Shown here: positions 324-33,012 of the stretch, piece after piece
Numbering within the stretch: position 1 is the stretch's first letter
How the letters are laid out: each line of letters begins with the position of its first letter
IMG/VR virus record: IMGVR_UViG_3300048924_000378
Location: 1 to 35,685 of that record
DNA from: a virus
Strand: one strand, 5' to 3'
DNA: 35,685 nt
Program-made: the position numbers and the translations under genes
Notes under the pieces: generated by a model
Told to the model about the DNA's origin: nothing
Databases searched by the model: none
Seen by the model: the letters and a program-made list of their open reading frames with translations, nothing else

Positions 324-3300
324 TCACCCCACGGTCGCAGCCATCTCCCGCATTTGCTGACGCAGAGCCTTGGGCGATGTGTCCGCGATCCGATCCGTGC
401 GATCCTTGTTCATCTCGCGCACGCGCTTCATCACGTCGGGGATCTTGACCACGATGGGCTGCTCGGGGTTGTTCTTGTTCCAGTCGGCCAGCCGGTCGCG
501 CACGCGCTGCAGGCCGGCTTCATCCTTCTCGAAGACAGCCTGGGCCCATTGCGCCTTTATGTCCGAAGAGGTCTGGGTATAGAAACTCTTGGACCGCTGC
601 ATGAAGCTGTTCGCCTCCTGGACCTCGGCAACGCTCTTGGGCTGGAAGCCGATGGCCTTGGCAGCCGCTTCGGCAAGCGTGGTTTCGATCACCTTGTAGC
701 CCTTTTGGTCGCGGTACATGCCGGTGGCCGCCATGTCGGCGCCCTTGGCCAGATTGCGCACCGCCGTGGGCGACACCTCCAGGGCCGCGCCTGCAATATC
801 CCCCGTCAGCACCTTGCGGCCGGCAGTGAAGCCGCGCGCGACCAGATCGCCGGCAGGGCCGACCACTTCCAGCAGGTCGCGCTCGCGGCTCTGTTTGGTC
901 AGGAACAGTCCAGTGCCGGGAATCAGGTTGCCCATGCCCAGGCGCCCGGACACGTCGATGGGCGCGCCCGGCAGGCCCGACAGGCCCTGCTCCATGAACT
1001 CGCCCAGTTCCTTGCCCACGATCCCCGCCAGCGCCTGCTTGCGCCATTGCTTGCTGCTGATGTTGTAGCCCATCAGCTGGCCCGCGCCGTCAATCAGGTC
1101 CTCCACATCCTCGGCGAAGGGCACGCCGCCGGCACCGCCCATCAGCAGCAGCATGGCCAGGGCCCAGCCCACGGCGCGCTTGCCCTCGGGCCCGCCCTGC
1201 TTCCACATGCGCTGCATCAACTCCAGGTAGCTGACGGAATAGGTCTTGAAGGTGAACAGCGTGCCGCCTACGGCGCCGCGAGCCCACTGGGGTTTGTTGG
1301 CCTTCGAGTAGACGAACTGGGTCTCCAGCACCGCCTTGCGCGCGAAGGCGCCGGGATCGGGCATGCCCTGGGCCTTGGCGATCCGGAATGCCGCGATGAA
1401 GGTGGAGCGGCGGTTGAACTGCTCGGCCAGGGCGAAGGGCTGGCCCCATGCCACCTTGCCGCGTTCCCAGGCATTGCCCGCCGCGGCGCGCGCATCGCCG
1501 GCCCGCGTGCCGTCGCCCGAGCGCAAGCCGCCCACGCCGCGCGCCTGGGCCATCAGCTGATGCACCTCCTGCGGCGAGACCACGCCATCGTCCTCGGCCG
1601 ACTTCAGGGCATGAGCCAGGTCCGTTTCGTATTTCATGCCGCGCGTGCCCATGTCCTTGAGTGCCCGTGTCATCTGGCCGCTGGCCGCACGCATGCCACC
1701 GAACTGGTTCAGCCATGGCAGCGTGACGGCAAAGGGCTGTGTCATGTTCACGAAGGCCGAGGCCAGGGAGCCGCCCAGGTACTGCGCAAACAGCATGCCG
1801 CGCACTGCCTGCCCCTCTTCCTGTGGGTCTCGGATGTAGCTGCGCAGACCCATGGCTAGGTCCTTCAGCTCGCCCTGGTCTTTGGGAATGTCGTTGATCG
1901 CCCGGTCCATCGTGCCCGCGTTCAGGCCGGCCGCGCCCTGGCGTGCATTGCTGTAGACGAAGTTGGCCACCACGCGGCCCACGTCCTGGCTGTAGCCCTC
2001 GATGCCCTTGCGCTGGATCAGGCGCTTGAGCGCGCTGTGGTTGTTCTTTGTCAGCTTCAGGTATTCGTCATAGACCTTGCGCGTGGCCGCGTCGGCCTCC
2101 TTGCCCACCACCATGTCCTTGAAGATCTCCAGGGTCTCTGGCGTGATGCCTGCGAACAGCTTGAAGGACTGCTGGCTCATCGTGCCCTGGGTGATCACGG
2201 CGCCGGGGAAGGCCTGGGCCATCTGGACCTTGGCCAGGTTGGCATCCTTCATGGTCTCGTACATGCCGAAGTACTGCCGGTTGCCATCCTGGTCCACAAC
2301 GTCCAGGGTGTACCGGCCGAAGCGCGACAACGGCGCATACCCGGCGTCCTGCAGGTCCTTGGCCGTGGCGGCGCGGTCAACCACCAGGTTGTTCAGTTGC
2401 ATCAGCCGGTCGGCCAGCTCCGGCTTGGCCTTGGCATCGTGCTGCAGCGTGGTGGTCAGCAGTTCCAGGACATCCGAGAGCTTGGGTGCATCCAGCACCA
2501 TGTCGCGCATCGGGGCGTACTCGTCGCCCAGCGCGCGCATCATGTCCGCCCGAGCGGTCATGTCGATGGAGCGGTCAATCGCCGCGCGGGCCTCGCGGTA
2601 CAACGCGATCTGGTTGGGCGTCGCGCCAAACATCGTCTGCAGCTCAGCATCGGTCCAGACCGTGCCGGCCTTCAGCATCTTGCTGTCGAAGCGGGAATTC
2701 ACGTTGGCCTCGTACTGGGCCAGTGGCAGGGCGCGCCATGCCCGGAGCATGAGGTCATCCAGGCGCCCCGCGCGCAGCAGCAGCTGAGCCTTTTCGTCGG
2801 CAGGCAGATTGCCGTATTTCTTGGCCAATTCGTCCACCAGCACAGCCTTGCCGTCCACGTCCCGGCCCCACAGCAGCGTCCCCTCAAAGAGAGGCTTCGC
2901 CACGGCCTTGTTGTCGGCCGCCGAGACGGGAGTCTTGCGGTTCTTGCCCACCAGGTCGCCGATGGTGTCCACGCGCGGCAGCAGGCGCGGCGCGCGGTCG
3001 GCCGCATCGTTGGCCAGCATGGACACGTCATCGATGTTCTGCTGGGCCGAATCGTAGACCGGCTTGAAGGCTGGCACGCGCTCGGCAAGGTGCCGCATGG
3101 TGCCGATGGTCTTGTCCCAGACAGAGATCTTGCCCGGGTGGGACATCGTCTTCTGGAGCTGGTCCAGAGCGCTGTTTTTGATCTCCGAAAGCCGCGAGCG
3201 GCTGAAGCTCACCTCGTCGTCGGCATCGCCTTGGCGAGGATTGCCTTGATCTGCGCGCTCGCTTCCGCGTCGTCCTTCTTCAGCGATTCGATCTCGGAGT

Positions 3301-6300
3301 CGCTCAGCCGGTTCGAATCGTGCAAGGTATCGCGCCTCAGACTCGGTGAGCGCGTCGAAGCCGTAGCCTGTGGCTGCACGGAATTGGACTTCGAGGTCAC
3401 CATGTTTTTGCCGGAGAGTTGCGAGAATTTCAGGAGAGGGCTGGATTTTTGCACTGTACTGCTTGCCGGTCAACGCAACCACGCCCACCACGTTGCCACC
3501 GCCCTCGCGGATGTGGCTGGCCAGGGCCGCGAACGTGCCACCCTGGGTGAGAGTGTCATCCACCAGCAGGTAGTCGCCAGGCTCCACGGCGCCCGCGAAA
3601 TCGACAGGCGCGAAGATGCGGTCAAGCCCATCCAAGCCGGTGCGACGCGCGCGGTTCGCCTGCACAATGCCTGTCGCCGTTTCCAGGCCCAGGCGCGCTG
3701 CCAGAACTTCGGCCACGGCGCGCGGGATCTTGTTGCGCCCCGAGACCTCTTCAGCCGCCACCGGCAAAACGCGCGGGCGGACGCCACCCAGTGCAGCAGC
3801 GACCTTCGCCACCATCTCGGGTGTGACGAGGTCCACAGCCAGCCGTGTGGCCGCTGCGACATCCCCACCCTTCGCCGCCGCGTAGTCCGGGTGCTTCGAT
3901 GCGCTGCCCAGCGTGCTGCCAATGATTGCGTCAGGCGTGATGGACGGCGAGTCGGAGCGGCTGAACACAGGCTCGACGCGGTCGGACACGGCGCGCTGCC
4001 CGCGCTCCACGAAATCGCGCGCCGGCAGGATGTAGCCCTGGATGATGTCGGCATCCGAGAGCTTGAGGCCCTTGAACCCAGGCACGTTGGCCCGCATCCA
4101 GTTGCGGATGGCGGCCACGGCGCGGCGCACGAAATGCAGCTGCGGCGTCTTCTCGGCCATCTCGGCCAGCACTTCCTCTGTCGCGTGGCCCCGGCTCAGG
4201 TCCGTGACGCCACGCAGGCCGTATTCCTTGATCTTGGCCGCAACCTCTGCCTGGCGCATGGTGGCCACCTGGTTGAGGATCTTGTTCAGCTCCGGCCCAA
4301 ACATGCCGCGCAGGCCATGGTGGCCCAGCACCTCGTGGTGCAGCACGCGGGCCGCGTCGGCGGGCGTGTTCAGCTTGCTGGCCAGCAGGTAGGCGCGACC
4401 TTTCCAGTAGAAGCCCTCGGGCGCGCCACTGGCGCCGCCGCTGCGCTGGCGCAAATCCGCGCGCCGCGCCGCCTCGGGCACTGCCGGATCGTTCATGTCG
4501 AAGGCCACCACGACTTCCGGCCCATTGCTCCAACCCTTGCGGATGGCATCCACCGTCTCACGCACCTGGCCCACGGCCCGGGCCCGCGCCGCATCGGAAA
4601 ACGCCGCCGGCTCGGGCCGCATGATGCGCAGCAGGTTGGCCATCTGTTCATCGGTCAGGCCCTGGGCATCTGCCTCGCCGCGTCGGAATGGGAGTTCCTC
4701 GGCGCGCTCCACCGGGCCGGCCTTCAATTCGCGCGCGCTGGGCGGCGTGGCATGGGTGCGCTCGCGCACGCCCGGCACATCCTCCCAGCCAGAGCCCTGC
4801 TTCTCCACCTGGCGCACCGTCACGCTCCACGCGCCATCGGTGTTGGCCGGCGTGTACGAGACCACGCGGACATGGCTATCCCCGTAGCCCTTCACGATGT
4901 TGCCCGGGGTGAAGTAGTCGGAGCGGTCGGCCTCTTCGGCCGCGGCCTTTTTAGCCAGGACCCCGCGAGGCCGCTTGGGCGTGACGTCAGCAGGCTCGCT
5001 GCCGTTCTGTCCACGCTCGGCACGCACCTTGTCCACCAGATCACGCACGCGCTGGCGCGATTCGGGCACGCTTTCACCTTTGCGGCGAAGCAACCCAGCC
5101 AAGTCGAACTTGTTGTCCACCAGGGGCGCGCCATCGGTGGGCTCCAGCATCACACTGCTGGGGTATCCCGCACGGTCTTTGTTCACGCCGACCAAGGTCG
5201 TGCCTTTGGAAAATTCCGAACGGTCGCCTTTTTTCCAATCCAGAACCCGACCCACCAGCGCAAGATCCTTGGCCAACCGTGCAGCGTCCTTTTCCTGGCG
5301 TGCAGTGGCGGCGGCCTCCCTCGCAGCCTGTACTTCAGCGGGCGTGCGGGCGGCCAGCGCCGCCTCGCGGGATCGGCCAGCTGCTGCAGACACCCAGGAC
5401 GCAAAGCGTTCCATGGCCCGATCCAGGCTGTTGTTCCGGCTTCCGGCCTGCTTGGAGTTCAGGCCGCTGCGGCCTGCCACGAAGCCGCTGTACGTGCCGG
5501 CGCGCACGCCCATCAGCATGCGGTACTGCTGCAAATACTCCTGTCGCAGCTGCTGCATTTCGGATTCCACAGCCGCCCGCTGGGCTTCGGTCTTGGCCAC
5601 GGACATGCCATCGTCGCGCTGGCTGTTCAGGAAGGTTTCGAAGGCCGCTCGGTCGCTTTTTGACCGGGTGTTGCCCTGATGCGAAATGCCAGAGTAGCTG
5701 GCGGCTGCCTCCTGCAGGGGGAATTCGTCGCCGGAAGCGGCTGACACAGAGGCGGCCTGGTCCTGCAGAGCAGGTGCTGCAGCAGCATCGGGCAAGGCAG
5801 CGGCCAGTTTCTCGCGCACCGTGGGCGCAAGATCAGCCCATGCCCGCGTGTGGGCGCCCGCCCGCGCCGGAGCGCTCAACCCCTTCGCTGCCTTGGCCAC
5901 AGCCTGGCGCTCGGCCGCCGGCATGCTGGTCCAGCGCTCGCTCGCGGCCAGCAGTTGCGCGCGCCGCGCGTCGCTCCCTTCCTTTGCCATGACCACGGCC
6001 TGCTGCTGGCCCGCCGTGGGCGCTGGCGCAGCAGCAGGGGCTACGCCGGCAGCCTGTTCGCTGGCGCCACTTCGGCCAGGTACAGCAGATTGCACGCCGG
6101 CAGCAGGCTGTCCGGCAACGCCACCTCGCGGCCCAGCAGGCTGAGCATCTGGCGCGCGTCCTGCCGGCTCACCGCCCCCAGCCGCCGCAGCAGCCTCAGT
6201 GCCTGCTGCGCGTTCATCTGCCATCCGTACTGCAGGTGCGGGTGAATCATTGGTTGCTCCTTGCGGCGCAATGGCGTCCGCGATCTTGCGTTGCAGGTCC

Positions 6301-8366
6301 ACATTCAGCCGCTCCCACGTGGCACCGGGGAGCGCCTTGCGGATGACCGGCTTCAGGCCCTCAAGCCGTCCGGCCAAGGCCTTGCGCTCTGCGGTGGCCA
6401 TGCTGGCCCAGGCCGCGCGCCCAGCATCGATGCGCTGGGCAGGGGTTTGGACTGGCGCTTGAGTTTGCGGGCCTGGCGCCGCACCTGCTTGCGCGCCATC
6501 GTGCTGAGACGAGGTGGTGCCATCGGTCAGCTCCTGCGCAGCCGCAGAACCTGCAACCGGCGCTCCTTGCGCTCCTGCTGCCTGCGAAGATTCCGCGCGC
6601 GGCGGCTGGGCTTGATCGGCTTGTGTGCCATCGATGCTTCCTTGCTGGAGGGTGGATGTGGGAGCAGGCGCGGCGGCTCCGGCCTGCTGCTCGCGCTCGC
6701 CGCGGCGCCGTGCCAGCTCGCGCGCCAGCTGCAGGCGCACGTTCTTCGCCTGGGCAGATCGGAATCCGTTGGACAGGTCCTCATCTGTCCAGGCGGCCAG
6801 AGCCCCGCCTTCGATCTCGCCGGTGGCAGGGTCTGCGGTGACCTGGCGCTCGGAGGCCTTTTTCTTGGCTGGCGCACGGGCGGCAACTTCGGCGGCTTGC
6901 GCCAAGGCATCGGCCTGCTGGGTCTGGGCAGCCGCGCCGGAATCCACAGCCAGGGCAGCAGCTGCGGACAGAGAGCCGGCGGCAGGGTCCAGGCCCATGG
7001 CGCGCGAGGGCGGCATGGCCGCGCCCGTGGATTGCAGGATCTCGTCATCGGGCGATTGCACGGCCCGGTTCGCGGCCATCTCGGCATCGCGTAGGGCCTG
7101 CTCCTGCGCGCGCTGCTGGGCCAGCGCGGCCGCGCCATCGGGCGGCGAGCTCTGCGGGACCTGCGGCTCGCCGCCCTCTTCCTGCTGCAGCTGCGACATG
7201 CGGGCTTCGAATTCCCTGCGCATGGTCTCCAGGCCGGCATTGGGTGGCGTGGCGGCGCCTTCAGCACCCGGGCTCGCGCCAGGGCCAGCAGCACTAGGTT
7301 CGCCGGCCGCGGCCTGCTCGGCCCCGGGCTGATCCGCTGCAGGAGCCTCGCCGGGCTGGCCCGCAGGCACTCGCGGCTCGCGCGCCGCCCGATACCCCGC
7401 CGCACCGCCGCCCATGGCTGCGCCCGACAGCGTGCCCAGCACCACCGCCGTATCCACGTCCTCGGACCAGTCCTTGCCCAGGGCCAGGTTCTGGAAGATC
7501 TGCTCGGCGACCGACTGCGGCAGCTCCTCGAGGAAACCTTCGGAAATCGCGCCCTGGATCACCTGCGTCGGAATGCTCTTGACCGCGCGCTGCTGCACCA
7601 GCGGATTCGCGGCCGCCGTGGCTGCGTCATCGGCGAACTGCTTGGCTATGCCCTTGTTGCCCTGGGCCAGCATGGTCTCGGCATCACCAATGCCCAGCCG
7701 CTGCGCCACGCGCCCGCCGGCATACCCCAGCCCGGCCGTGGCCGCGCCGGTGGCAGCCGCTGCAGCTGTCTGGCCAGGAGAAAGCAGGCCGTCATCCGTC
7801 TCCTGCCGGATCTGCTCGGCCGCCGAGCCCGCGCCCACGATGCCCTCACCCAGCGCACCAGCTGCAGCAGCACCCTTTGCGCCGGCCTGGCCCAGCCGCG
7901 TGGCCGCACCCAGGCCGCGCGCCACCACGCCGCCCGCACCCATGGCCGGCAGCGATTCAACAACCGCGCCGACGATATTGGAAGGATTCTCGATGGCGGC
8001 CTGGAACTTTCCGCCCAGGCCCTCGGCCTCCTGGAATTTGCGCTGCGCTTCCTTGGTTGCGTCGGAGTGCCATTCATTGATGGCCTCGCGCGCCTGCTTG
8101 GGCCGGAAGCCCACATCACCACCCTCGTTCTCCAGGAGCTTGCCCGCGCGCCCGCCGGTGGCTATGTCAGCCAGCCCGACAACAGCCTGGGGCACGGCCA
8201 CGGCGCCCTTGGCTGCCCAGGCCGCTGCGTCCCGAACGTAGTCGGTTGCGCTGCGGCCTGATGGCTCCTTGCCGTAGTCAGGGTCCAAAAAGGGATTCTT
8301 GGACGGCGGCTTGGCGCCTGGCGCGTTGGCGCCGTAGTTGGGGTCGGAGAACGGATTCTGTGCCAT
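324..8366 (-). CDS. Giant polyvalent internal virion protein (2680 aa)
   Basis: One unbroken 2680-residue frame, probably packaged in the capsid and ejected with the DNA. Visible parts in order: two N-terminal motifs, NPFSDPNYG (4-12) and NPFLDPDYGK (24-33); a Gly/Ala-rich helical region (about 70-330); a long low-complexity Ala/Gln/Pro tract (about 330-900); a zincin-like metallopeptidase region with HHEVLGHHGLRGMFG (near 1342); a phosphoribosyltransferase-like domain with VDDTLTQGGT (near 1600), a PRPP-loop-type motif; a PLSRFG motif (near 2012) typical of 'PLxRFG' proteins; and helical segments with hydrophobic stretches towards the C-terminus. Several enzymatic domains joined by disordered linkers match the polyvalent proteins of phages and plasmids, and Bcep22-like podophages also carry a giant virion protein. 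The start has the late element at 8402-8416 upstream. The gene is last but one in the visible late region, downstream of the accessory insertion. Confidence 0.85.
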   Translation of the reverse strand: MAQNPFSDPNYGANAPGAKPPSKNPFLDPDYGKEPSGRSATDYVRDAAAWAAKGAVAVPQAVVGLADIATGGRAGKLLENEGGDVGFRPKQAREAINEWHSDATKEAQRKFQEAEGLGGKFQAAIENPSNIVGAVVESLPAMGAGGVVARGLGAATRLGQAGAKGAAAAGALGEGIVGAGSAAEQIRQETDDGLLSPGQTAAAAATGAATAGLGYAGGRVAQRLGIGDAETMLAQGNKGIAKQFADDAATAAANPLVQQRAVKSIPTQVIQGAISEGFLEELPQSVAEQIFQNLALGKDWSEDVDTAVVLGTLSGAAMGGGAAGYRAAREPRVPAGQPGEAPAADQPGAEQAAAGEPSAAGPGASPGAEGAATPPNAGLETMRREFEARMSQLQQEEGGEPQVPQSSPPDGAAALAQQRAQEQALRDAEMAANRAVQSPDDEILQSTGAAMPPSRAMGLDPAAGSLSAAAALAVDSGAAAQTQQADALAQAAEVAARAPAKKKASERQVTADPATGEIEGGALAAWTDEDLSNGFRSAQAKNVRLQLARELARRRGEREQQAGAAAPAPTSTLQQGSIDGTQADQAQPPRAESSQAAGAQGAPVAGSAAAQELTDGTTSSQHDGAQAGAAPGPQTQAPVQTPAQRIDAGRAAWASMATAERKALAGRLEGLKPVIRKALPGATWERLNVDLQRKIADAIAPQGATNDSPAPAVRMADERAAGTEAAAAAGGGEPAGRAPDAQPAGPRGGVAGQPAAGVQSAVPGRSGASEQAAGVAPAAAPAPTAGQQQAVVMAKEGSDARRAQLLAASERWTSMPAAERQAVAKAAKGLSAPARAGAHTRAWADLAPTVREKLAAALPDAAAAPALQDQAASVSAASGDEFPLQEAAASYSGISHQGNTRSKSDRAAFETFLNSQRDDGMSVAKTEAQRAAVESEMQQLRQEYLQQYRMLMGVRAGTYSGFVAGRSGLNSKQAGSRNNSLDRAMERFASWVSAAAGRSREAALAARTPAEVQAAREAAATARQEKDAARLAKDLALVGRVLDWKKGDRSEFSKGTTLVGVNKDRAGYPSSVMLEPTDGAPLVDNKFDLAGLLRRKGESVPESRQRVRDLVDKVRAERGQNGSEPADVTPKRPRGVLAKKAAAEEADRSDYFTPGNIVKGYGDSHVRVVSYTPANTDGAWSVTVRQVEKQGSGWEDVPGVRERTHATPPSARELKAGPVERAEELPFRRGEADAQGLTDEQMANLLRIMRPEPAAFSDAARARAVGQVRETVDAIRKGWSNGPEVVVAFDMNDPAVPEAARRADLRQRSGGASGAPEGFYWKGRAYLLASKLNTPADAARVLHHEVLGHHGLRGMFGPELNKILNQVATMRQAEVAAKIKEYGLRGVTDLSRGHATEEVLAEMAEKTPQLHFVRRAVAAIRNWMRANVPGFKGLKLSDADIIQGYILPARDFVERGQRAVSDRVEPVFSRSDSPSITPDAIIGSTLGSASKHPDYAAAKGGDVAAATRLAVDLVTPEMVAKVAAALGGVRPRVLPVAAEEVSGRNKIPRAVAEVLAARLGLETATGIVQANRARRTGLDGLDRIFAPVDFAGAVEPGDYLLVDDTLTQGGTFAALASHIREGGGNVVGVVALTGKQYSAKIQPSPEILATLRQKHGDLEVQFRAATGYGFDALTESEARYLARFEPAERLRDRIAEEGRRGSERADQGNPRQGDADDEVSFSRSRLSEIKNSALDQLQKTMSHPGKISVWDKTIGTMRHLAERVPAFKPVYDSAQQNIDDVSMLANDAADRAPRLLPRVDTIGDLVGKNRKTPVSAADNKAVAKPLFEGTLLWGRDVDGKAVLVDELAKKYGNLPADEKAQLLLRAGRLDDLMLRAWRALPLAQYEANVNSRFDSKMLKAGTVWTDAELQTMFGATPNQIALYREARAAIDRSIDMTARADMMRALGDEYAPMRDMVLDAPKLSDVLELLTTTLQHDAKAKPELADRLMQLNNLVVDRAATAKDLQDAGYAPLSRFGRYTLDVVDQDGNRQYFGMYETMKDANLAKVQMAQAFPGAVITQGTMSQQSFKLFAGITPETLEIFKDMVVGKEADAATRKVYDEYLKLTKNNHSALKRLIQRKGIEGYSQDVGRVVANFVYSNARQGAAGLNAGTMDRAINDIPKDQGELKDLAMGLRSYIRDPQEEGQAVRGMLFAQYLGGSLASAFVNMTQPFAVTLPWLNQFGGMRAASGQMTRALKDMGTRGMKYETDLAHALKSAEDDGVVSPQEVHQLMAQARGVGGLRSGDGTRAGDARAAAGNAWERGKVAWGQPFALAEQFNRRSTFIAAFRIAKAQGMPDPGAFARKAVLETQFVYSKANKPQWARGAVGGTLFTFKTYSVSYLELMQRMWKQGGPEGKRAVGWALAMLLLMGGAGGVPFAEDVEDLIDGAGQLMGYNISSKQWRKQALAGIVGKELGEFMEQGLSGLPGAPIDVSGRLGMGNLIPGTGLFLTKQSRERDLLEVVGPAGDLVARGFTAGRKVLTGDIAGAALEVSPTAVRNLAKGADMAATGMYRDQKGYKVIETTLAEAAAKAIGFQPKSVAEVQEANSFMQRSKSFYTQTSSDIKAQWAQAVFEKDEAGLQRVRDRLADWNKNNPEQPIVVKIPDVMKRVREMNKDRTDRIADTSPKALRQQMREMAATVG

Positions 8367-26524: not shown

Positions 26525-27303
26525 GGCTGGCTCCCCTGCTGGTGCTGCGCCACAGCGGCGGCAGTGCGGCGCTTGGCCCGCCCCAGGCGCATGCGGTCTG
26601 CGCGTGCCTGCACTTGCACGGGCGTGAAGCGCGAGGCCTTGAGCGCGAAGGCTTCGCGCAGGGTGGCCAGCTTGGACAGCACCTCGCGCTTCGGGCCGCT
26701 GGGCATGGACTCGGGCGCCGGCAGCGCAAGTGCTGCGCGCGGGGCCGGCAGTTGCAGCTGCTCGCGCAGGTCGTCGGTCAGGCCATCCATACCGCCCGGC
26801 AGCCGGCCTGCCGTGATGGCTTCCTGCACGGCGCGGGTGCGCGCTTCGGGGTCGTGGCCCAGGCTGACCTGCACCACCGGGCGGCGGCGCAGCGCGCGGG
26901 CCTCGCCCGTGATCCGGCCGTAGGCCTCGATGAATGCCTGCCGGGCCCCGAACTTGTCGCCGGCACTGAGCAGCGGCGCGGCCACGGCCCAGGCCTCGGC
27001 AATCTCGTCGGTCCACACCACGGTGGCCTGCTGGTCAGCACTGGTCAGCGCCAGGCCATAAGCTTCGGCGGGCAGCATGCGGCCCATGGCGTGGTCCACG
27101 TACTGCAGCACGGTGCCGGTCAGGATCGGGCCGCGGTGCTCGGCGCGGATCCGGGCCAGGGCCAGACGTAGCACCGGTTTCTCGATGTGGGCGAGGTCTT
27201 CAGCCAGCAGCAGCAGGGCTGCAGTTCGGACCTGCTGGCCGCTCAGCTCCATCGTGGCGCCCAGCTCTTCCAGCAGCCAGTCGGTGTCGTGGTCGTCACG
27301 CAT
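26521..27303 (-). CDS. Possible helicase-loader-like replication protein
   Basis: 260 residues. It directly follows the O-like initiator (the two overlap by 8 bases), where lambda-type phages keep gene P. The N-terminal half is helical, with AALLLLAEDLAHIEKPVLRLALARIRAEHRG and PILTGTVLQYVDHAMG, resembling the short helical domains of phage replication partner proteins that test partial overlap of 'working area' helices. No Walker motifs are seen, so it is not an AAA+ loader. The role as initiator partner or loader is inferred from position. The stop overlaps the next ATG (ATGA). Confidence 0.45.
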   Translation of the reverse strand: MRDDHDTDWLLEELGATMELSGQQVRTAALLLLAEDLAHIEKPVLRLALARIRAEHRGPILTGTVLQYVDHAMGRMLPAEAYGLALTSADQQATVVWTDEIAEAWAVAAPLLSAGDKFGARQAFIEAYGRITGEARALRRRPVVQVSLGHDPEARTRAVQEAITAGRLPGGMDGLTDDLREQLQLPAPRAALALPAPESMPSGPKREVLSKLATLREAFALKASRFTPVQVQARADRMRLGRAKRRTAAAVAQHQQGSQP

Positions 27304-28252
27304 TGCCGCCCTCCCCGTTGCCCCGGCCGCCGCGCTGGCGCAGCAGCCGCTTAGCCGCCTCGATGGCGTCGAAGTTGGCGCTCGTCTTGTCGGCCGCCTG
27401 CGCTGCCGTGCCGGTCACGGCCTGGCCACGAGCCCACTGGGTGCGGAAGCTCTCGGCCTGGTTCACCAGCACGCCGACGCCGTGTGAGTTCTTCACCACG
27501 AATGCCTCGTTCACGCTGGCCACGTACCAAGCCGCCACCAGCGGTGCCTCCTCGAAGCCCAGGCGCTTGACCAGCGTCTTCACGTTGGCGTTCACCACCT
27601 GGTTGCGCACCGGCTTGACGCCGTACCGCTGCTCGTAGGCCAGGCTGTACGCTGCCCAGGTGAGCTTGCAGGCTGCCTGCAGGGCTGTCTCGCCGTCGCC
27701 TGGTTCGCCGCCAACCCCATCGCGGCCCGGCGGCGCAGCCGGCGGGGATGGTTCTTTGGCGGTTCCTTTACGGTTCCTATTACGGTTCAATGATGATTTG
27801 GGTGCGCCATCTGCACCCCTGGGGTGCGCCATCTGCGGGGGTTGAGGTGCGCCATTTGCACCCCCTGGTGCGCCGGCTGCGGGGGGTGGTGCGCCGTCTG
27901 CACCCGGTGCGCCATTTGCGGGGGGTGCGCCATTTGCACCCGGTGCGGCATCTGCACCCGTGCCGCGTTTACGCTTCGCGGGCGCTGCAGCCGGGTTGAA
28001 GTTGGCTGGCGTGATGGTGTAGCTGGTGCTCGAGTTGATGCGGTACTCGCGGTACACCACGCCCACGGTCTGCAACCAGGCGATGGCATCCTGCACCGCG
28101 CGCTCGGACAGGCATGTGCGCTTCGCAATCGTCGCAACGCCGGGCCAGCACACGCCGTCATCATTGGCCTGGTCGGCCAGGGAAATCAGCACAGCCTTCT
28201 GCGCCGGGGACATTGCCAGCGGCCAGCAGGCCGCCATGATCATCGTGCTCAT
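27296..28252 (-). CDS. O-like replication initiator with origin iterons in its linker
   Basis: 318 residues from the ATG at 28252 (ATGA overlap with the Rha gene). The N-terminal 85 residues are a winged-helix DNA-binding domain (MSPAQKAVLISLADQANDDG, GVATIAKRTCLSERAVQDAIAWL), as in phage O-type initiators. A low-complexity Gly/Ala/Pro linker (about 97-150, repeated NGAP and DGAP) is encoded by eight 19-bp repeats, and then a basic SLNRNRNRKGT stretch by AT-rich DNA. The C-terminal domain (about 200-318; LTWAAYSLAYEQRYGVKPVRN, NANVKTLVKRLGF) is typical of replisome-organiser proteins. The layout matches lambda O, where the origin lies inside the gene. Confidence 0.75.
   Translation of the reverse strand: MSTMIMAACWPLAMSPAQKAVLISLADQANDDGVCWPGVATIAKRTCLSERAVQDAIAWLQTVGVVYREYRINSSTSYTITPANFNPAAAPAKRKRGTGADAAPGANGAPPANGAPGADGAPPPAAGAPGGANGAPQPPQMAHPRGADGAPKSSLNRNRNRKGTAKEPSPPAAPPGRDGVGGEPGDGETALQAACKLTWAAYSLAYEQRYGVKPVRNQVVNANVKTLVKRLGFEEAPLVAAWYVASVNEAFVVKNSHGVGVLVNQAESFRTQWARGQAVTGTAAQAADKTSANFDAIEAAKRLLRQRGGRGNGEGGNA
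27752..27800. other. AT-rich block next to iterons (probable DNA-unwinding element)
   Basis: By direct count 27751-27800 is 42% GC, inside a gene that is otherwise very GC-rich. It contains three ACGGTTC-type direct repeats at about 12-base spacing. It lies on the downstream side of the iterons with respect to gene direction, the same order as in the lambda origin. Confidence 0.5.
27801..27960. repeat. Eight 19-bp iterons, probable phage replication origin
   Basis: Copies of GGTGCGCCATYTGCACCCC or the same with a GGGGG end start at 27801, 27823, 27846, 27867, 27888, 27906, 27924 and 27942. Spacing is 21-23 bp for the first five and exactly 18 bp for the last four. The ACCC-ended copies have dyad symmetry (GGTGC...GCACC). 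They lie in the initiator gene between the DNA-binding and C-terminal domains. The repeats also encode a low-complexity linker, so repeat expansion alone is an alternative. Confidence 0.6.
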
Positions 28253-28965
28253 TGCTGCGCGCCCCCCTGCGCCAGGCGGGCCTGGTGCTGGCCCCACAGG
28301 CCGGCCACCCAGTTCACGCCCTTGGGGGTGAACTTCGTCGCGTTGAAGGCATGCTCGTTGGCCTGGGCCACGCCTGTCTTCACGACAAAGCGGCCGGCAT
28401 CGATGTGACACTGGTGCGCGGTCCACTCGCCGCCCAGGCGGTACATGATCTTTTCGTCCTGCAGCCAGGCCCGGAATGCGTGCTCGTTCGCGCCCAGCAG
28501 CTTGGCCACCTGACGGAAGCCCTTCGCGCCGTTGGCGGCCACGTAGCGGTCCACGTATTCAGCCTTGGGCGCGGCCAGTGCCAGGGCGGCCTGCTGCTGC
28601 TCGATCTGCTCGGCCTGTTCAGCGGCCAGGCGCAGCGCCTGAGACATCGTGCGCGGAACGGCTGGAGCGGCCTGGACCTCCAGCTCCTGCCACCGCTTCA
28701 CCACCTTCATGCGCGCCACGGCGTCGTAGCCCAGCAGCAGGGTCAGGCAGGTGTCGCGGTCCAGTTCGTACTGCGGGTAGCGCTGGCCGTTGGCACCCGC
28801 GTAAGTCGTTGTTTCGCAAGCAGGATTCAAATTTGAAGCCTGCAGGTCGTCCAGCATCGTGCGGATGTCGCGCATCACGTTGCCATGGTCGCGGCCCGTC
28901 AGCTCGGCGATTTCGCGGCTGCTCATGGTCAGCACGGCGGAAGAAATTGCGGTGATCGCGTTCAT
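28249..28965 (-). CDS. Rha/KilAC-type antirepressor or regulatory protein
   Basis: 238 residues. The N-terminal domain (about 12-95) is the Rha family: LTMSSREIAELTGRDHGNVMRDIR, then YELDRDTCLTLLLGYDAVARMKVVKRW. The C-terminal domain (about 135-235) is a KilAC/ANT antirepressor domain: FRQVAKLLGANEHAFRAWLQ, IMYRLGGEWTAHQ, KTGVAQANEHAFNATKFTPKG. Such proteins interfere with repressor control or modulate lysogeny. The start at 28965 overlaps the upstream stop (ATGA), and its own stop overlaps the initiator start. Confidence 0.82.
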   Translation of the reverse strand: MNAITAISSAVLTMSSREIAELTGRDHGNVMRDIRTMLDDLQASNLNPACETTTYAGANGQRYPQYELDRDTCLTLLLGYDAVARMKVVKRWQELEVQAAPAVPRTMSQALRLAAEQAEQIEQQQAALALAAPKAEYVDRYVAANGAKGFRQVAKLLGANEHAFRAWLQDEKIMYRLGGEWTAHQCHIDAGRFVVKTGVAQANEHAFNATKFTPKGVNWVAGLWGQHQARLAQGGAQQ

Positions 28966-29390
28966 TGCCCGGGCCCCCAGAATTTCCGGGCCGGAAATGG
29001 GCCTGTCAAATGCTCACGCAGGTCCATAGCATCAGCGTCATGCAACGCTTTTTCCGCAACCATCAACGTGTAAGTCTTCTCGTGGACCAGCAGGTAAATG
29101 CAGTCCCGCTGGCAGGCCGACGAGTTCTGTTTGCGCATGGCCGCTCGACGCCTGAAAAGCTCCGCAGTGCCACTGTCAACCCACGTCTTCATGCAGGTGT
29201 CCAGAGCCCCATTCGGCCCAGCGATGCCACGGGCAAACATCACGCCGCCACCTTCAGCCTCGTCCAACCGGGCCTGGACATGCGTCAGCACGCGCTCTGC
29301 TTCCTCAGGGGCCAGCCCCTTCAGTGCCTTGATGATTCGTTCCGCCGCGTCAATCTCCGCGCGGCTCAGTACTTGGGGGGCGTCACGCAT
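28962..29390 (-). CDS. Hypothetical early protein (142 aa)
   Basis: 142 residues. GAGGAG precedes the ATG at 29390. The N-terminal half is helical (LSRAEIDAAERIIKALKGLAPEEAERVLTHVQARLDEAE); the second half has cysteines and hydrophobic segments (CIYLLVHEKTYTLMVAEKAL). It has no recognised domain. It lies in the leftward early operon just before the Rha gene, coupled by ATGA, so probably a regulator or host-takeover protein. Confidence 0.6.
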   Translation of the reverse strand: MRDAPQVLSRAEIDAAERIIKALKGLAPEEAERVLTHVQARLDEAEGGGVMFARGIAGPNGALDTCMKTWVDSGTAELFRRRAAMRKQNSSACQRDCIYLLVHEKTYTLMVAEKALHDADAMDLREHLTGPFPARKFWGPGQ

Positions 29391-29487
29391 GCGGACTCAC
29401 TCCTCGGCTTGATTTTTCAAAGGGGTGCCCGCCACCTCCCGGGGCAGAATGGAAGTTCCTACACAACCATTTCCAGGAGGGGCGGAC

Positions 29488-29745
29488 ATGAAACTGGAGA
29501 ACACGGAATTGCTTGTCGCCGCGCAGGTGTTGGACCTGGCTGCTGCGAACCGCCAGACGGCCTGGGCGAGGTACGCCAGGGAGAACGACTTGCCCGCACA
29601 GGCCTCACCCCAGGAACGGAAAGCCTGGAGGGAAGAGCACCCGGTGTCGGAGTTCGTGCCTGGGGCGCTTGCTGCTCTACAAGCCGTCGCGATGCAGATA
29701 CGCGAACTCACGGCAGCCTCCAATCGGGATCCGGCGAAGGGCTGA
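29488..29745 (+). CDS. Small hypothetical gene against the early operon
   Basis: 85 residues from the ATG at 29488 (AGGAGG upstream); an earlier in-frame start exists but is less likely. Helical throughout: NTELLVAAQVLDLAAANRQTAWARYARE and VPGALAALQAVAMQIREL. It is on the + strand, opposite to the leftward early operon, and its 3' end overlaps the small - strand gene by 38 bases. It would be transcribed in lysogens or by its own promoter; no promoter is obvious. Function unknown. Confidence 0.55.
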   Translation: MKLENTELLVAAQVLDLAAANRQTAWARYARENDLPAQASPQERKAWREEHPVSEFVPGALAALQAVAMQIRELTAASNRDPAKG

Positions 29746-29938
29746 CGGTCAGCGCCAAGGCGGTGATCGACTGCTGGGCAGCCACTGTGGCCTGCTGCGA
29801 CATCAGCCTTTTCATGTCGGCGTGCAGATTCAGGCTGGCCTTGTGCCAAGCCTCCATGCGACGCTCCTGGCGGACGCGGTGCAAGCGCTTCTGGAACGGC
29901 AGTGGGCCCGGCCGCTTGGACTTGCGGGGGCTATGCAT
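29708..29938 (-). CDS. Small basic early protein (76 aa) after cro
   Basis: 76 residues from an ATG at 29938 that overlaps the end of the cro-like gene by 8 bases. The N-terminus is strongly basic (SPRKSKRPGPLPFQKRLHRVRQERR), followed by a helical region. The small size, basic charge and coupled position suit an early regulator or nucleic-acid-binding protein (for example an antitermination-type factor), but no family is recognised. Confidence 0.5.
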   Translation of the reverse strand: MHSPRKSKRPGPLPFQKRLHRVRQERRMEAWHKASLNLHADMKRLMSQQATVAAQQSITALALTVSPSPDPDWRLP

Positions 29939-30182
29939 GACCCGGCTCCTGGGCGGCGGGCTGCGCAAGCTCGGGCAGCGGATCTCGCCCATAGACCTGG
30001 TCCAAGGTCACGGACAGGCCGCGCCCGAGCGCGAAATCGATCAGCCTCAGGGCAACGTGCACAGGCATGGACTGCAGCCCGGACTCGTAGTTGGCGATGT
30101 TTCCTTGGCTGCATTCGATTCCAACGCCAAGCTCTTTTTGGGTCACACCCAGGAGCGACCGTATGGGTTTGAGTGTCTGCAT
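29931..30182 (-). CDS. Cro-like helix-turn-helix repressor
   Basis: 83 residues. A compact XRE-type helix-turn-helix domain lies in the first half: LGVTQKELGVGIECSQGNIANYESG, followed by a short C-terminal part. It reads leftward from a promoter over which operators O1 and O2 lie, divergent from the repressor gene, the position of lambda cro. The ATG at 30182 lies exactly 7 bases after the -10 box, so the mRNA is probably leaderless; an ATG at 30191 is in frame but lies within the -10 region. It should repress the repressor promoter and commit to lytic growth. Confidence 0.78.
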   Translation of the reverse strand: MQTLKPIRSLLGVTQKELGVGIECSQGNIANYESGLQSMPVHVALRLIDFALGRGLSVTLDQVYGRDPLPELAQPAAQEPGHA

Positions 30183-30189
30183 GACATTC

Positions 30190-30218
30190 ATTATCAGCGG
30201 CGCTGGTTCTTGCGTCAA
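30190..30218 (-). promoter_or_regulatory. Leftward early promoter (cro/replication operon)
   Basis: On the - strand: TTGACG (30218-30213), a 17-base spacer, and GATAAT (30195-30190). Transcription should start at about 30182, at the A of the cro ATG. Operators O1 and O2 overlap the -10 and -35 regions. Confidence 0.8.
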
Positions 30219-30255
30219 CCAGCGCCGCTGATCATAAATAATCAGCGCGCCTGAT
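30193..30255. promoter_or_regulatory. Left operator region, O1-O2-O3
   Basis: Three 15-bp imperfect palindromes: O1 ATCAGCGGCGCTGGT (30193-30207), O2 ACCAGCGCCGCTGAT (30218-30232, inverted O1), O3 ATCAGCGCGCCTGAT (30241-30255), centres 23-25 bp apart. O1 and O2 cover the leftward promoter; O3 covers the -10 of the repressor promoter. This matches the lambda OR logic of repression plus repressor autoregulation. Confidence 0.8.
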
Positions 30256-30258
30256 ACT
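30230..30258 (+). promoter_or_regulatory. Repressor-maintenance promoter
   Basis: The -10 is GATACT (30253-30258) with a preceding T. The -35 position (30230-30235, GATCAT) is poor, so activation by repressor bound at O2 is likely. The predicted start is the A of the ATG at 30265, giving a leaderless repressor mRNA, as in lambda PRM. Confidence 0.55.
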
Positions 30259-30264
30259 AAAGAC

Positions 30265-30972
30265 ATGAGTAGCAAGAAAGCCATCGTCACGGACGAGCAC
30301 CGCGAAGAGGCGCGTGCCCTGCGTGAAATCTGGAACAGGGTCAAGCCCAGAAACCAGAAGGAATTCGGCGCGGAGTTTGGGATCGGCGGGCAGACTGCTG
30401 TCAGCAACTTCCTGAGCGGCACATCCGCCCTCAGTCTGAAGGCAGCCGCAGGATTTGCCGCTGGTCTAGGCTGTCGCATTGAGGATTTCAGCCCGCGACT
30501 GGCAGCCCCTGCGGCCCAAATCGCAGAGCTGACCCCGCCGCCCCCACCCTCCAGCGACGAATACACGTCAGTGCGATACGCCAATGTCCGCTTTGCAAAC
30601 GGCACTGGCAAGGTGGCCTACGTCGCTGCCGACAAACCTGCCCTCGTGTTCCGGACCGATTTTTTGAAGAAGGCTGGCGTCTCTCAGGCAAATGCTGTGG
30701 TCGTGGATGCGACAGGCCACAGCAACGAACCAAAAATCCCAGACGGGTCGATCGTCCTGGTAAACCGTGGGGACAAGGAGCGGCTGAACGGTGACTTCTA
30801 TGCCTTCCGTGCCGACGGTGAGCTGCTCATCAAGCGTCTTCAGGATGTCCCTGGGGCCGGCGTCTTGGCGATAGCCGACAACCCCAGCTTCAAGCCCAAG
30901 CAAATCATGTACCGAGAAGGTGATGATTTCGAAGTAATTGGCCGCGCCGTATGGGCAGGAATCATGCTCTGA
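30265..30972 (+). CDS. CI-like repressor, HTH plus S24/LexA-type domain
   Basis: 235 residues. An N-terminal helix-turn-helix (about 28-75) is followed by a Pro-rich linker (about 80-98). The C-terminal LexA/S24-type domain (about 115-235) has GHSNEPKIPDGS, in which S153 sits where the catalytic Ser of GDSMEP lies, and LLIKRL with K190 as the partner Lys, so self-cleavage on SOS induction is plausible. The gene is divergent from cro, flanked by operators on both sides, and ends in a strong terminator. Confidence 0.88.
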   Translation: MSSKKAIVTDEHREEARALREIWNRVKPRNQKEFGAEFGIGGQTAVSNFLSGTSALSLKAAAGFAAGLGCRIEDFSPRLAAPAAQIAELTPPPPPSSDEYTSVRYANVRFANGTGKVAYVAADKPALVFRTDFLKKAGVSQANAVVVDATGHSNEPKIPDGSIVLVNRGDKERLNGDFYAFRADGELLIKRLQDVPGAGVLAIADNPSFKPKQIMYREGDDFEVIGRAVWAGIML

Positions 30973-31000
30973 CGCGACTGCAACTCATCTTCCCAACGTC

Positions 31001-31031
31001 AAAAAAGACCCGCCTTGTGCGGGTTTTTTTA
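31001..31031 (+). terminator. Intrinsic terminator after repressor gene
   Basis: Stem ACCCGC / GCGGGT with a CTTGT loop, flanked by AAAAAA on the left and TTTTTT on the right, so it could act in both directions. It lies just after the repressor stop codon and before the right operators. Confidence 0.88.
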
Positions 31032-31070
31032 CGGCCATTCGCCGATGGCACCAGCGCGCACGAAACAAAA

Positions 31071-31110
31071 ATCAGCGGCGCTGGTTGACACACAAACCAG
31101 CGGCGCTGAT
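31071..31110. promoter_or_regulatory. Right operator pair
   Basis: Two 15-bp operators, ATCAGCGGCGCTGGT (31071-31085) and ACCAGCGGCGCTGAT (31096-31110), with centres 25 bp apart. They are near-identical to O1 and O2 on the left side of the repressor gene and overlap the rightward promoter, like lambda OL. Confidence 0.82.
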
Positions 31111-31113
31111 AAT
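31085..31113 (+). promoter_or_regulatory. Rightward early promoter
   Basis: TTGACA (31085-31090), a 17-base spacer, GATAAT (31108-31113): nearly consensus. It drives the arm that reads towards rdgC and is overlapped by both right operators, so it should be off in the lysogen. Confidence 0.85.
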
Positions 31114-31176
31114 AAATCTCAGCATCCCAGCCACCGCACATCGCGGACCGGTTGGGAAGTTGGGCACCACGGCATC

Positions 31177-31195
31177 GACCGGGATGGCCCCGGTC
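31177..31195 (+). terminator. Hairpin just downstream of rightward promoter
   Basis: Stem GACCGGG / CCCGGTC with a 5-base loop followed by TTTAAC. The T-run is short, so it may be a weak terminator or pause site about 60 bases into the rightward transcript. Confidence 0.35.
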
Positions 31196-31196
31196 T

Positions 31197-31388
31197 TTAA
31201 CAAGAGAGCCTGAGTACAGATTGGTTGAGGCGGCCGCTGACGGCGCGTGAGAAGTTCAGCGGGAAGCGGGGTGGATAGCTCCAGCCCGCCCCACTCGGGC
31301 ACATCATCAGTAGCAGAAAGATGTAGCCGATGGCTTGGAGGCACTTGGCCACGTCGATCTTGATGCTCACACGCACAGAAGTCTTCAT
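31197..31388 (-). CDS. Possible small membrane protein (63 aa)
   Basis: 63 residues: a short N-terminal region with basic residues, then a hydrophobic segment (AIGYIFLLLMM, about 19-29) and a polar tail. GGAGC lies 7 bases upstream of the ATG at 31388, and an 18-bp perfect palindrome lies 19 bases upstream of that ATG. It is antisense to the rightward early transcript. It could be a small host-membrane-acting peptide, but with this length chance cannot be excluded. Confidence 0.4.
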   Translation of the reverse strand: MKTSVRVSIKIDVAKCLQAIGYIFLLLMMCPSGAGWSYPPRFPLNFSRAVSGRLNQSVLRLSC

Positions 31389-31406
31389 TTGGATTGCTCC
31401 GGTGAA

Positions 31407-31424
31407 GACCCGTGGCCACGGGTC
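31407..31424. promoter_or_regulatory. 18-bp perfect palindrome
   Basis: GACCCGTGGCCACGGGTC is perfectly self-complementary with no loop, so it is better read as a protein-binding site than as an RNA hairpin. It lies 19 bp upstream of the small - strand reading frame at 31388. Confidence 0.4.
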
Positions 31425-31582
31425 AAGAACCCGCTTTGCACTTATTACGCGCCCTTGCTGGCGCGGCCAGTTGCTTACCGCGAATGGGCTTCTGGCATCG
31501 GCTTGGTGAAAGGGGGCGATGCTCTTGTCGCCGAGCAGGCGGGACATCCATCCCATACCACCCAAAGTCACCGTACCTGTAA

Positions 31583-31621
31583 GCGCCTTGCTAAGGCGCA
31601 GTGGGAGTTAGCGGCTCCCAC
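31583..31621 (+). ncRNA. Two-hairpin RNA module, put-like in architecture
   Basis: Stem I GCGCCTT-GCT-AAGGCGC (31583-31599) and stem II GTGGGAG-TTAGCGG-CTCCCAC (31601-31621) are separated by one unpaired A. Both arms are perfect 7-bp pairs. The arrangement of two stem-loops with one unpaired base recalls HK022 put RNA, which makes RNA polymerase read through terminators. It lies on the rightward early transcript ahead of two terminators. Confidence 0.45.
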
Positions 31622-32092
31622 AGCAAGTATCTCAGATGGCCGCCTCATCCAATCTGCACTCAGCTCTCGCACTGCACGCCGATGTTGCTTGCCCCACGAG
31701 CGGGGCATTCGTCCGGCGCAATGGCGCTCCTGGGCATGGGCCAGGTGAGCGCGCCGCGTCTCCGCGCGGTTGCCAGTCCGTCAAAGCACGGTTCACGGCA
31801 TAGGGAAGGAACTGCGGGCGGGATGCCCTGTAGAGAGTAGGCGGGAGGCAGTGAAGGGTGTGCGCCAGCGCATCTGGAGCCGACGATGGAACACCGCCCG
31901 GGCATTCCGGTGACGAACGCAGTGAGATGACACCACGGAGCAAATAAACGGTGCGGCATGTTGATGCCGCGCAGCTGCTACCAGATGCAGCACGCCCTCC
32001 CCGAGCGCATCGGGGCGAAACAAAAGAGGCTCTCGTTGGGGGACGCGTTTAGTGCATGTGTTACAAACTGCCCATCCAAGAAGGGAGAGACC

Positions 32093-32659
32093 ATGTTCAA
32101 AAGCCAGCAGACACTGGCCGCCATTGCCCTGGCATTCGCTGCAGTAGGCCCTGCATCGGCGCAGGTGAAATGCACAATGCCAAATCAGAAAGTCATCACG
32201 CTTCAGACGGCCAGCAAATGTCCGGCGGATGCCTTGAAAGCAGAGACGCTGGATGGCAAGGACATCACGCCACCGCAAAGCGAACGTCGTACCCCGACAC
32301 CAAAGCCGACCACCACAGCCGCTCCACCGCCGACGCCCAAGCCTATCGAAAACCATATCGTGAGACCCAGGCGGGAGGAGTACGTTGAGCCATTCGATGT
32401 TGCACGCAACATCTGCAAGGTTGTCAAAGATCACAAGGCAGGCATTTGCAGCATCAGTCAAGCAAACAGGGTCGAAAACACCCCTTACATTCGTGTCACC
32501 ACCGACGGCACAGCTGACGAGTTACGCAAGCTATGCCAGATGCTCGCAAAATCTGCCCACGAATCGAGTAAAGGCAGTATGCGTGATCACTTTTGGTATG
32601 TGAGGGTGTATTCACGGCATGATTTCTTCACACCAGTGGACACTTGCAGGATTCAGTAG
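32093..32659 (+). CDS. Exported six-cysteine protein with Pro/Thr linker
   Basis: 188 residues from the ATG at 32093 (GGGAGAG upstream). A signal peptide (about 1-23, ending ASA) precedes QVKC. A small N-terminal part with two Cys is joined through a Pro/Thr-rich linker (about 66-86) to a C-terminal domain with four Cys (NICKVV, GICSI, KLCQM, DTCRIQ). No family is recognised. It is the first + strand gene after the rightward early promoter and could be made during infection or independently as an accessory gene. Periplasmic location is predicted. Confidence 0.7.
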   Translation: MFKSQQTLAAIALAFAAVGPASAQVKCTMPNQKVITLQTASKCPADALKAETLDGKDITPPQSERRTPTPKPTTTAAPPPTPKPIENHIVRPRREEYVEPFDVARNICKVVKDHKAGICSISQANRVENTPYIRVTTDGTADELRKLCQMLAKSAHESSKGSMRDHFWYVRVYSRHDFFTPVDTCRIQ

Positions 32660-33012
32660 CTAGCTGCCGTGCCTGCTGCACGGGAAGTACGCAGTCGGCG
32701 GCCCCAGGAATCCATCTAGCCCCCTCGAAAGCAGCGGGGAGGTCAACAATACTCTGATCATGGATCGCAGAGGGCTTACCAATCACGGAAGGTTAAGCCC
32801 TGCAAATTTTACCTCTTGTACACGATTGCGAAAGCGTGTGCCGGGCATACTGACCTGAACAGTTTCTCGCCGAGCCTGGGCTTCCTCCTCCCTCCCTCTC
32901 TAATTCCCAGGCACGCCTTCAAGGCATCGGCACTTTCCAGCAAGGCCCTGCAGCTTCACCAGTTGCAGGGCCTTTTGTTTTTTGGCCCGCGCGGCCGCAA
33001 TCTGGAGCCCCC
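32660..33012 (+). other. 353-bp gap with hairpin and terminator
   Basis: No gene is seen. The gap contains a hairpin CCGTGC-CTGCT-GCACGG (32667-32683) without a T-run right after the exported-protein gene, and a strong terminator (32942-32983) near its end. No clear promoter for the following genes was found. Confidence 0.5.
32942..32983 (+). terminator. Intrinsic terminator inside rightward early arm
   Basis: 11-bp stem AAGGCCCTGCA / TGCAGGGCCTT (32942-32952 and 32964-32974) followed by TTGTTTTTT. It lies 30 bases before the next start codon, so downstream genes need readthrough or another promoter. Confidence 0.85.

Follow-up and report, generated by a model that had tools for sequence, protein, structure and literature searches.

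A probable lambda/P22-type lysogeny switch with apparently leaderless cro and cI messages in a temperate phage of Delftia or a closely related host

We found that a CI-type repressor gene in a phage sequence of 35,685 nucleotides (the whole stretch analysed, here called the window) is flanked on either side by an operator-promoter module of 47-51 nt, the two modules being inverted and facing outwards. The locus is very probably the immunity region, or lysogeny switch, of lambda/P22 type in a temperate phage of Delftia (Burkholderiales) or a close relative, the host being inferred because one relative bears a named organism (L012, Delftia acidovorans NBRC 14950). We hold the lambda-type switch with leaderless cro and cI messages, taken as a whole, to be a highly probable reading, built on the sequences and layout of the elements, protein homology, conservation among relatives and the absence of Shine-Dalgarno sequences. 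This documents, for Burkholderiales phages, a complete OL-cI-OR switch in which cI and cro both appear to be leaderless. The coordinates of its elements are collected in Table 1.

Table 1. Elements of the putative switch and of the adjoining PR-side operon, in window coordinates.
Feature	Position	Strand	Basis
cI, CI-type repressor, 235 aa, lambda-CI-like N-terminal domain and S24 domain	30265-30972	plus	homology searches
-10 box GATACT of the PRM-type repressor promoter, with a weak -35; kept in relatives	30253-30258	plus	promoter reading
PR-type promoter, TTGACG-17-GATAAT	30218-30190	minus	promoter scan
PL-type promoter, TTGACA-17-GATAAT, pointing away from cI	31085-31113	plus	promoter scan
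Putative operator OR1, centre 30200, overlapping the PR spacer and -10	30192-30208		matrix scan
Putative operator OR2, centre 30225, abutting the PR -35; OR1-OR2 25 bp	30217-30233		matrix scan
Putative operator OR3 (degenerate), centre 30248, covering the repressor promoter with its -10; OR2-OR3 23 bp	30240-30256		matrix scan
Putative operator OL2, centre 31078	31070-31086		matrix scan
Putative operator OL1, centre 31103; OL1-OL2 25 bp	31095-31111		matrix scan
Intrinsic terminator CCCGC-CTTGT-GCGGG-TTTTTTT, 3' of cI; kept in relatives	31009-31030	plus	direct reading; minus-strand counterpart in scan
cro-like gene, 83 aa, divergent from cI	29931-30182	minus	ORF and homology
Rha/KilAC antirepressor, PR-side operon	28249-28965	minus	domain and PHROG matches
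Replication initiation O-like protein, PR-side operon	27296-28426	minus	homology

The repressor matched the full-length lambda repressor in the PDB (3bdn, E 2e-8, residues 2-203) as well as the lambda N-terminal-domain structures 1rio and 1lmb, carried a Peptidase_S24 domain (E 2e-15) and was assigned to PHROG 4 (phrog_4), 'transcriptional repressor'. The protein of the divergent cro-like gene, which begins MQTLKPIRSLLGVTQKELG..., matched a PDB chain named 'lambda repressor-like protein' (E 2.8e-4) and, below the Pfam curated cut-off, HTH_31 (E 1.7e-5); the gene is kept in relatives. These matches bear out the repressor and cro identifications that a preliminary description had made from the letters alone, and both also survived comparative testing. 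The range given there for the switch, 30190-31113, does not include cro itself.

We then examined the two modules statistically. The arm to the left of cI (30182-30232) and the arm to its right (31071-31121) form a 51-nt inverted repeat with 88% complementarity. The best ungapped inverted 47-mer between the two cI flanks was identical at 42 of 47 positions, against 23-25 of 47 in 12 shuffled controls with approximately the same dinucleotide content. The pattern TTGAC-N18-[TG]A[TA]A[AC]T occurred at only two sites in the 35.7 kb window, which are PR and PL, and the same two were the sole promoter-like matches in a promoter scan of positions 28900-32800. Each module carries two strong putative operators, all four being 17-bp near-palindromes around CAGCG-S-CGCTG. 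When every window position was scored with an operator matrix, the five putative operators ranked first to fifth: the four strong sites at 25-28 bits, OR3 at 16.0 bits, and the next best position at 6.9 bits. The matrix was derived from the strong operators found in the window and its relatives, so that the four strong sites are partly self-scored while OR3 is not. OR1 and OR2 are centred 17-18 and 42-43 bp upstream of the cro start, and OR2 and OR3 lie 40 and 17 bp upstream of the cI start. On the other side of the gene, a possible OL3 half-site (ACCAGCGC, 31050-31057, 21 bp from OL2) is kept in five sequences, with a matrix score no better than chance.

These results uphold the earlier proposal that O1/O2 operators and a TTGAC-N17-GATAAT promoter face outwards on both sides of the repressor gene. 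The third operator that it had placed over the repressor's own promoter is indeed found there, but in a degenerate form (TCAGCGCGCCTGA). The reading of the locus as twin modules is likewise supported, but it amounts to the classical OL-cI-OR layout of lambda, P22 and N15, and is thus less unusual than the title of that description implied.

Given that the two copies are highly similar, the right-hand one might instead be a recent inverted duplication without function that governs no regulated operon. Comparison with relatives makes this extremely improbable. Three independent relatives, the viral contigs L004, L005 and L006, encode repressor proteins 97-100% identical to that of the window within regions of 82-98% nucleotide identity, and they carry the right-hand copy at the same place. 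L007 and L012, whose contigs have the same length (41634), hardly differ from L006 here. In the alignment, both -35/-10 pairs, their 17-nt spacings, the four strong operators, the cI -10 and the terminator are all kept, while the flanks diverge, including the stretch from the terminator to OL. Among the relatives, the S base at the middle of each operator switches freely between C and G, as expected of a dyad centre. Moreover, the relative L008 carries a RecE/RecT early operon downstream of PL, comprising genes for an HNH endonuclease, a RecE-like exonuclease and a RecT annealing protein. Similar outward right-hand promoters, beside unrelated operators, also occur in two phages, L052 and L047, whose repressors were not recovered by any search with the window repressor and whose operators differ from those of the window. 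In L052 (about 1083-2120), a LexA-like repressor gene lies between outward promoters TTGACA-16-TAAAAT on the cro side and TTGACA-18-TAAAGT on the other side, with inverted 10-mers common to both flanks of the gene. In L047 (about 2027-3030), a right-hand TTGACA-17-TTTAAT stands beside operator-like sequence that resembles the cro side; no shared 10-mer was found between its flanks. These two phages appear to have a similar outward OL/OR arrangement built from unrelated repressors and operators.

The relatives came from several searches. A scan of genome contigs with the repressor gave a single match, a 97% Delftia acidovorans copy. A family-wide search returned mostly matches to the C-terminal domain; of these, L030, L033 and L035 entered the comparison because their N-terminal domains are related. 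Repressors found by tblastn in the phage collection, at no more than 31% identity among the best matches, were dropped as too distant for operator comparison.

Besides the antirepressor and O-like genes of Table 1, the minus strand further downstream of cro encodes a RuvC-like resolvase, followed by terminase, portal and head genes. Together with the genes downstream of PL as read in L008, this predicted content is that expected of the lambda early right and left operons.

We next considered how cro and cI would be expressed. The distance between the -10 box and the cro ATG is 7 nt in the window, L005, L006, L047 and L052, 5 nt in L030 and 6 nt in L035; for cI it is 6 nt in the window, L005, L006 and L052, and 8 nt in L033. 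The preliminary description had put both ATGs exactly 7 nt after a -10 box, which is right for cro, while the repressor gap is one of 6 nt. A normal sigma-70 start falls 6-8 nt after the -10, so the 5' end of both messages would coincide with the AUG or lie right beside it. In the window, no Shine-Dalgarno sequence precedes either gene: the predicted anti-Shine-Dalgarno energy was 0.4 kcal/mol for cro and 0.3 kcal/mol for cI, compared with -5.6 to -9.3 kcal/mol for about half of 18 other starts, which were taken from ORF calls and are hence approximate. This lack is only supportive because weak Shine-Dalgarno sequences are also predicted for several other genes. With predicted starts and gaps that recur across loci, the leaderless messages proposed earlier are well supported, and the cro and cI messages probably open with their start codons, give or take one base.

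The same switch could also work with normal short leaders, cro being read from an upstream promoter and cI from an AATAAT box at a gap of 22 nt, with weak upstream sequence aiding translation. In the window, this AATAAT 22 nt before the cI ATG does outscore GATACT, and by direct reading an in-frame ATG at 30191-30189 lies upstream of the chosen cro start. Yet AATAAT is absent in L006 and reads AAAAAT in L005, while GATACT at a gap of 6 nt is kept in all of them, and the upstream cro ATG shares bases with the PR -10. The missing Shine-Dalgarno sequences and the cro gap of 5-7 nt, which recurs in phages with unrelated repressors, also speak against leaders of ordinary type, and we consider this alternative quite unlikely. 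Since the repressors and operators of L047 and L052 are unlike those of the window, the leaderless spacing of cro would not simply be inherited along with the repressor sequence. The leaderless state appears less general for cI than for cro, because no suitable -10 box was found before the cI ATG of L030 and L047. When start codons and promoters are called in such phages, a leaderless cro should be kept in mind.

From these sequences we infer protein binding, repression, activation, transcript 5' ends and possible OR-OL looping that would together operate as follows. In the lysogen, repressor dimers would occupy OR1/OR2 and OL1/OL2, and the bound repressor would shut PR (cro, antirepressor and replication) and PL (the recombination operon). 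The repressor would be made from PRM next to OR2, a promoter with a good -10 and a poor -35 that would depend on repressor at OR2; OR2 is shifted by 2 bp relative to lambda, which makes the activation of PRM by repressor uncertain. OR3, lying over PRM, would provide shut-off by Cro or by high repressor. Both messages would have their 5' ends no more than a base away from the AUG and be translated without a Shine-Dalgarno sequence. Looping between OR and OL would be possible across 878 bp; in lambda, the OR-OL loop spans more than 2 kb.

How such a switch would be induced is less certain. The catalytic Ser (in GHS) and Lys (in LLIKRL) of the S24 domain align with those of lambda CI. RecA-cleavable repressors of the S24 type carry Ala-Gly, or Cys-Gly, at the scissile bond. 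The lambda, P22 and F116 repressors have Ala-Gly at the corresponding place of the alignment, whereas the window repressor, L006 and L028 appear to have Asn-Gly at the nearest place, the linker being only loosely aligned. Because the scissile Ala-Gly appears to be replaced by Asn-Gly, RecA-triggered self-cleavage is uncertain, and the window repressor may not be RecA-cleaved. Accordingly, an alternative that departs from the preferred model in the induction step only is that repression is relieved by an antirepressor, either the Rha/KilAC protein of the PR operon or one encoded elsewhere. The apparent Asn-Gly and the presence of an Ant/KilAC gene within the PR operon are both in keeping with it. 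We nevertheless regard antirepressor induction as somewhat unlikely, given that the S24 catalytic residues are kept and that an antirepressor whose own operon is repressed would need a further trigger before it could set off induction.

We compared this lambda-type switch with characterised systems. It shares with lambda a homologous CI-type repressor, a divergent cro, OR1/OR2/OR3 and outward PL and PR, with OR spacings of 25/23 in the window versus 24/23 in lambda; by the lambda annotation, OR2 and OR3 lie 42 and 19 from the cI start, compared with 40 and 17 here. In contrast, lambda has rex genes between cI and OL (OL-rexB-rexA-cI-OR-cro) and a third OL operator, and the operators of the window form a different palindrome. 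The lambda cro is also further from its promoter, with 26 nt between the annotated OR1 end and the cro start, while the window cro is apparently leaderless. The immC region of P22 (OL-c2-OR-cro) is similar in that the repressor gene stands directly between OL and OR with no gene intervening, but it has three annotated OL operators, and 29 nt lie between the end of its annotated PR promoter and the start of cro. The immB region of N15/phiKO2 has three OR and two OL operators for one repressor (PMC4488713), the same operator count as in the window; unlike the window, these phages are linear plasmid prophages with OL upstream of repA and regulatory genes spread over several loci.

Leaderless messages also have precedents. 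That of lambda cI is a textbook case. It is so described in the literature, together with leaderless translation of the PaaR2 regulator of an E. coli O157:H7 prophage (PMC8630535). In PY54, both the cI and cro transcripts were leaderless by RACE (PMC4488713); only one operator of that phage (OR3) fits the N15 scheme, whereas the window has five clear sites. PY54 is the only proven leaderless cro that we found in the literature, and our comparison suggests that leaderless cro recurs in phages with unrelated repressors. Every feature of the switch therefore has a characterised precedent, and the locus is a clean fresh example that does not define a new type of system. We found no single described phage that combines five operators, two leaderless messages and the lack of any intervening gene; this combination we regard as a minor variation.

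Next to PL we observed a structured small-ORF element (31197-31663, minus strand), antisense to the predicted PL transcript, and this RNA may be more novel than the switch. Between PL and the first gene of the right operon, the window has about 540 bp that are absent from the closest Delftia relatives. The element occurs in nine phage contigs (the window, L047, L048 and L051-L056), and in genome G196 it occupies the equivalent place downstream of a different repressor and PL. Read on the minus strand, the element comprises an extended -10 (TGnGATACT), a structured leader containing a 29-nt core that is almost invariant (in eight of the contigs this invariance is a selection effect, since they were retrieved via the core), a hairpin just before the Shine-Dalgarno (GGAG in the window type), an ORF for a hydrophobic peptide of 27-30 aa (MKTSVRVSIKIDVAKCLQAIGYIVLLLML in L054) and another hairpin after the ORF. 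In the window, the peptide frame is without the stop seen in other copies and runs on to 63 aa. The consensus fold has 73 pairs, 22 of them with compensatory changes, with a small covariation energy term (-2.8) and some pairs within the coding part.

No matching family was found in Rfam, Pfam or NCBIfam. The core had no match in annotated phages or plasmids and none in 399 genomes of the order, and a single match in 401 genomes of the family. A literature search on the Rfam family and on type I toxin-antitoxin pairs in Comamonadaceae gave nothing useful. A transposon-like insertion, suggested by 26-nt inverted end repeats, was set aside given the internal conservation, covariation and small ORF; the element may be mobile as a cassette. 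As a hypothesis, it would be a type-I-toxin-like small-ORF mRNA. It is conceivable, if unlikely, that the right arm also controls this undescribed small hydrophobic peptide, with PL transcription running antisense through a structured mRNA whose promoter faces PL. If so, derepression of PL would turn off a peptide of type-I-toxin-like or exclusion function and so link its expression to lysogeny.

Several minor observations were also made. Directly upstream of the small-ORF element and on the same strand lies an Rfam Burkholderiales-2 RNA (RF02917, 77.4 bits, 31678-31752, minus), which was not found in L008, L009, L010 or L012. Within the PL leader, a 26-nt block (AAGTTGGGCACCACGGCATCGACCGG, 31157-31182, alignment columns about 1100-1126) is nearly invariant in the five aligned phages while both of its flanks diverge, and is possibly an antitermination or RNA-processing signal. 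Elsewhere in the window, the minus strand holds a 2680-aa ORF (324-8366), opposite which a 1208-aa ORF is open (2037-5663); the latter is probably a composition effect of high GC.
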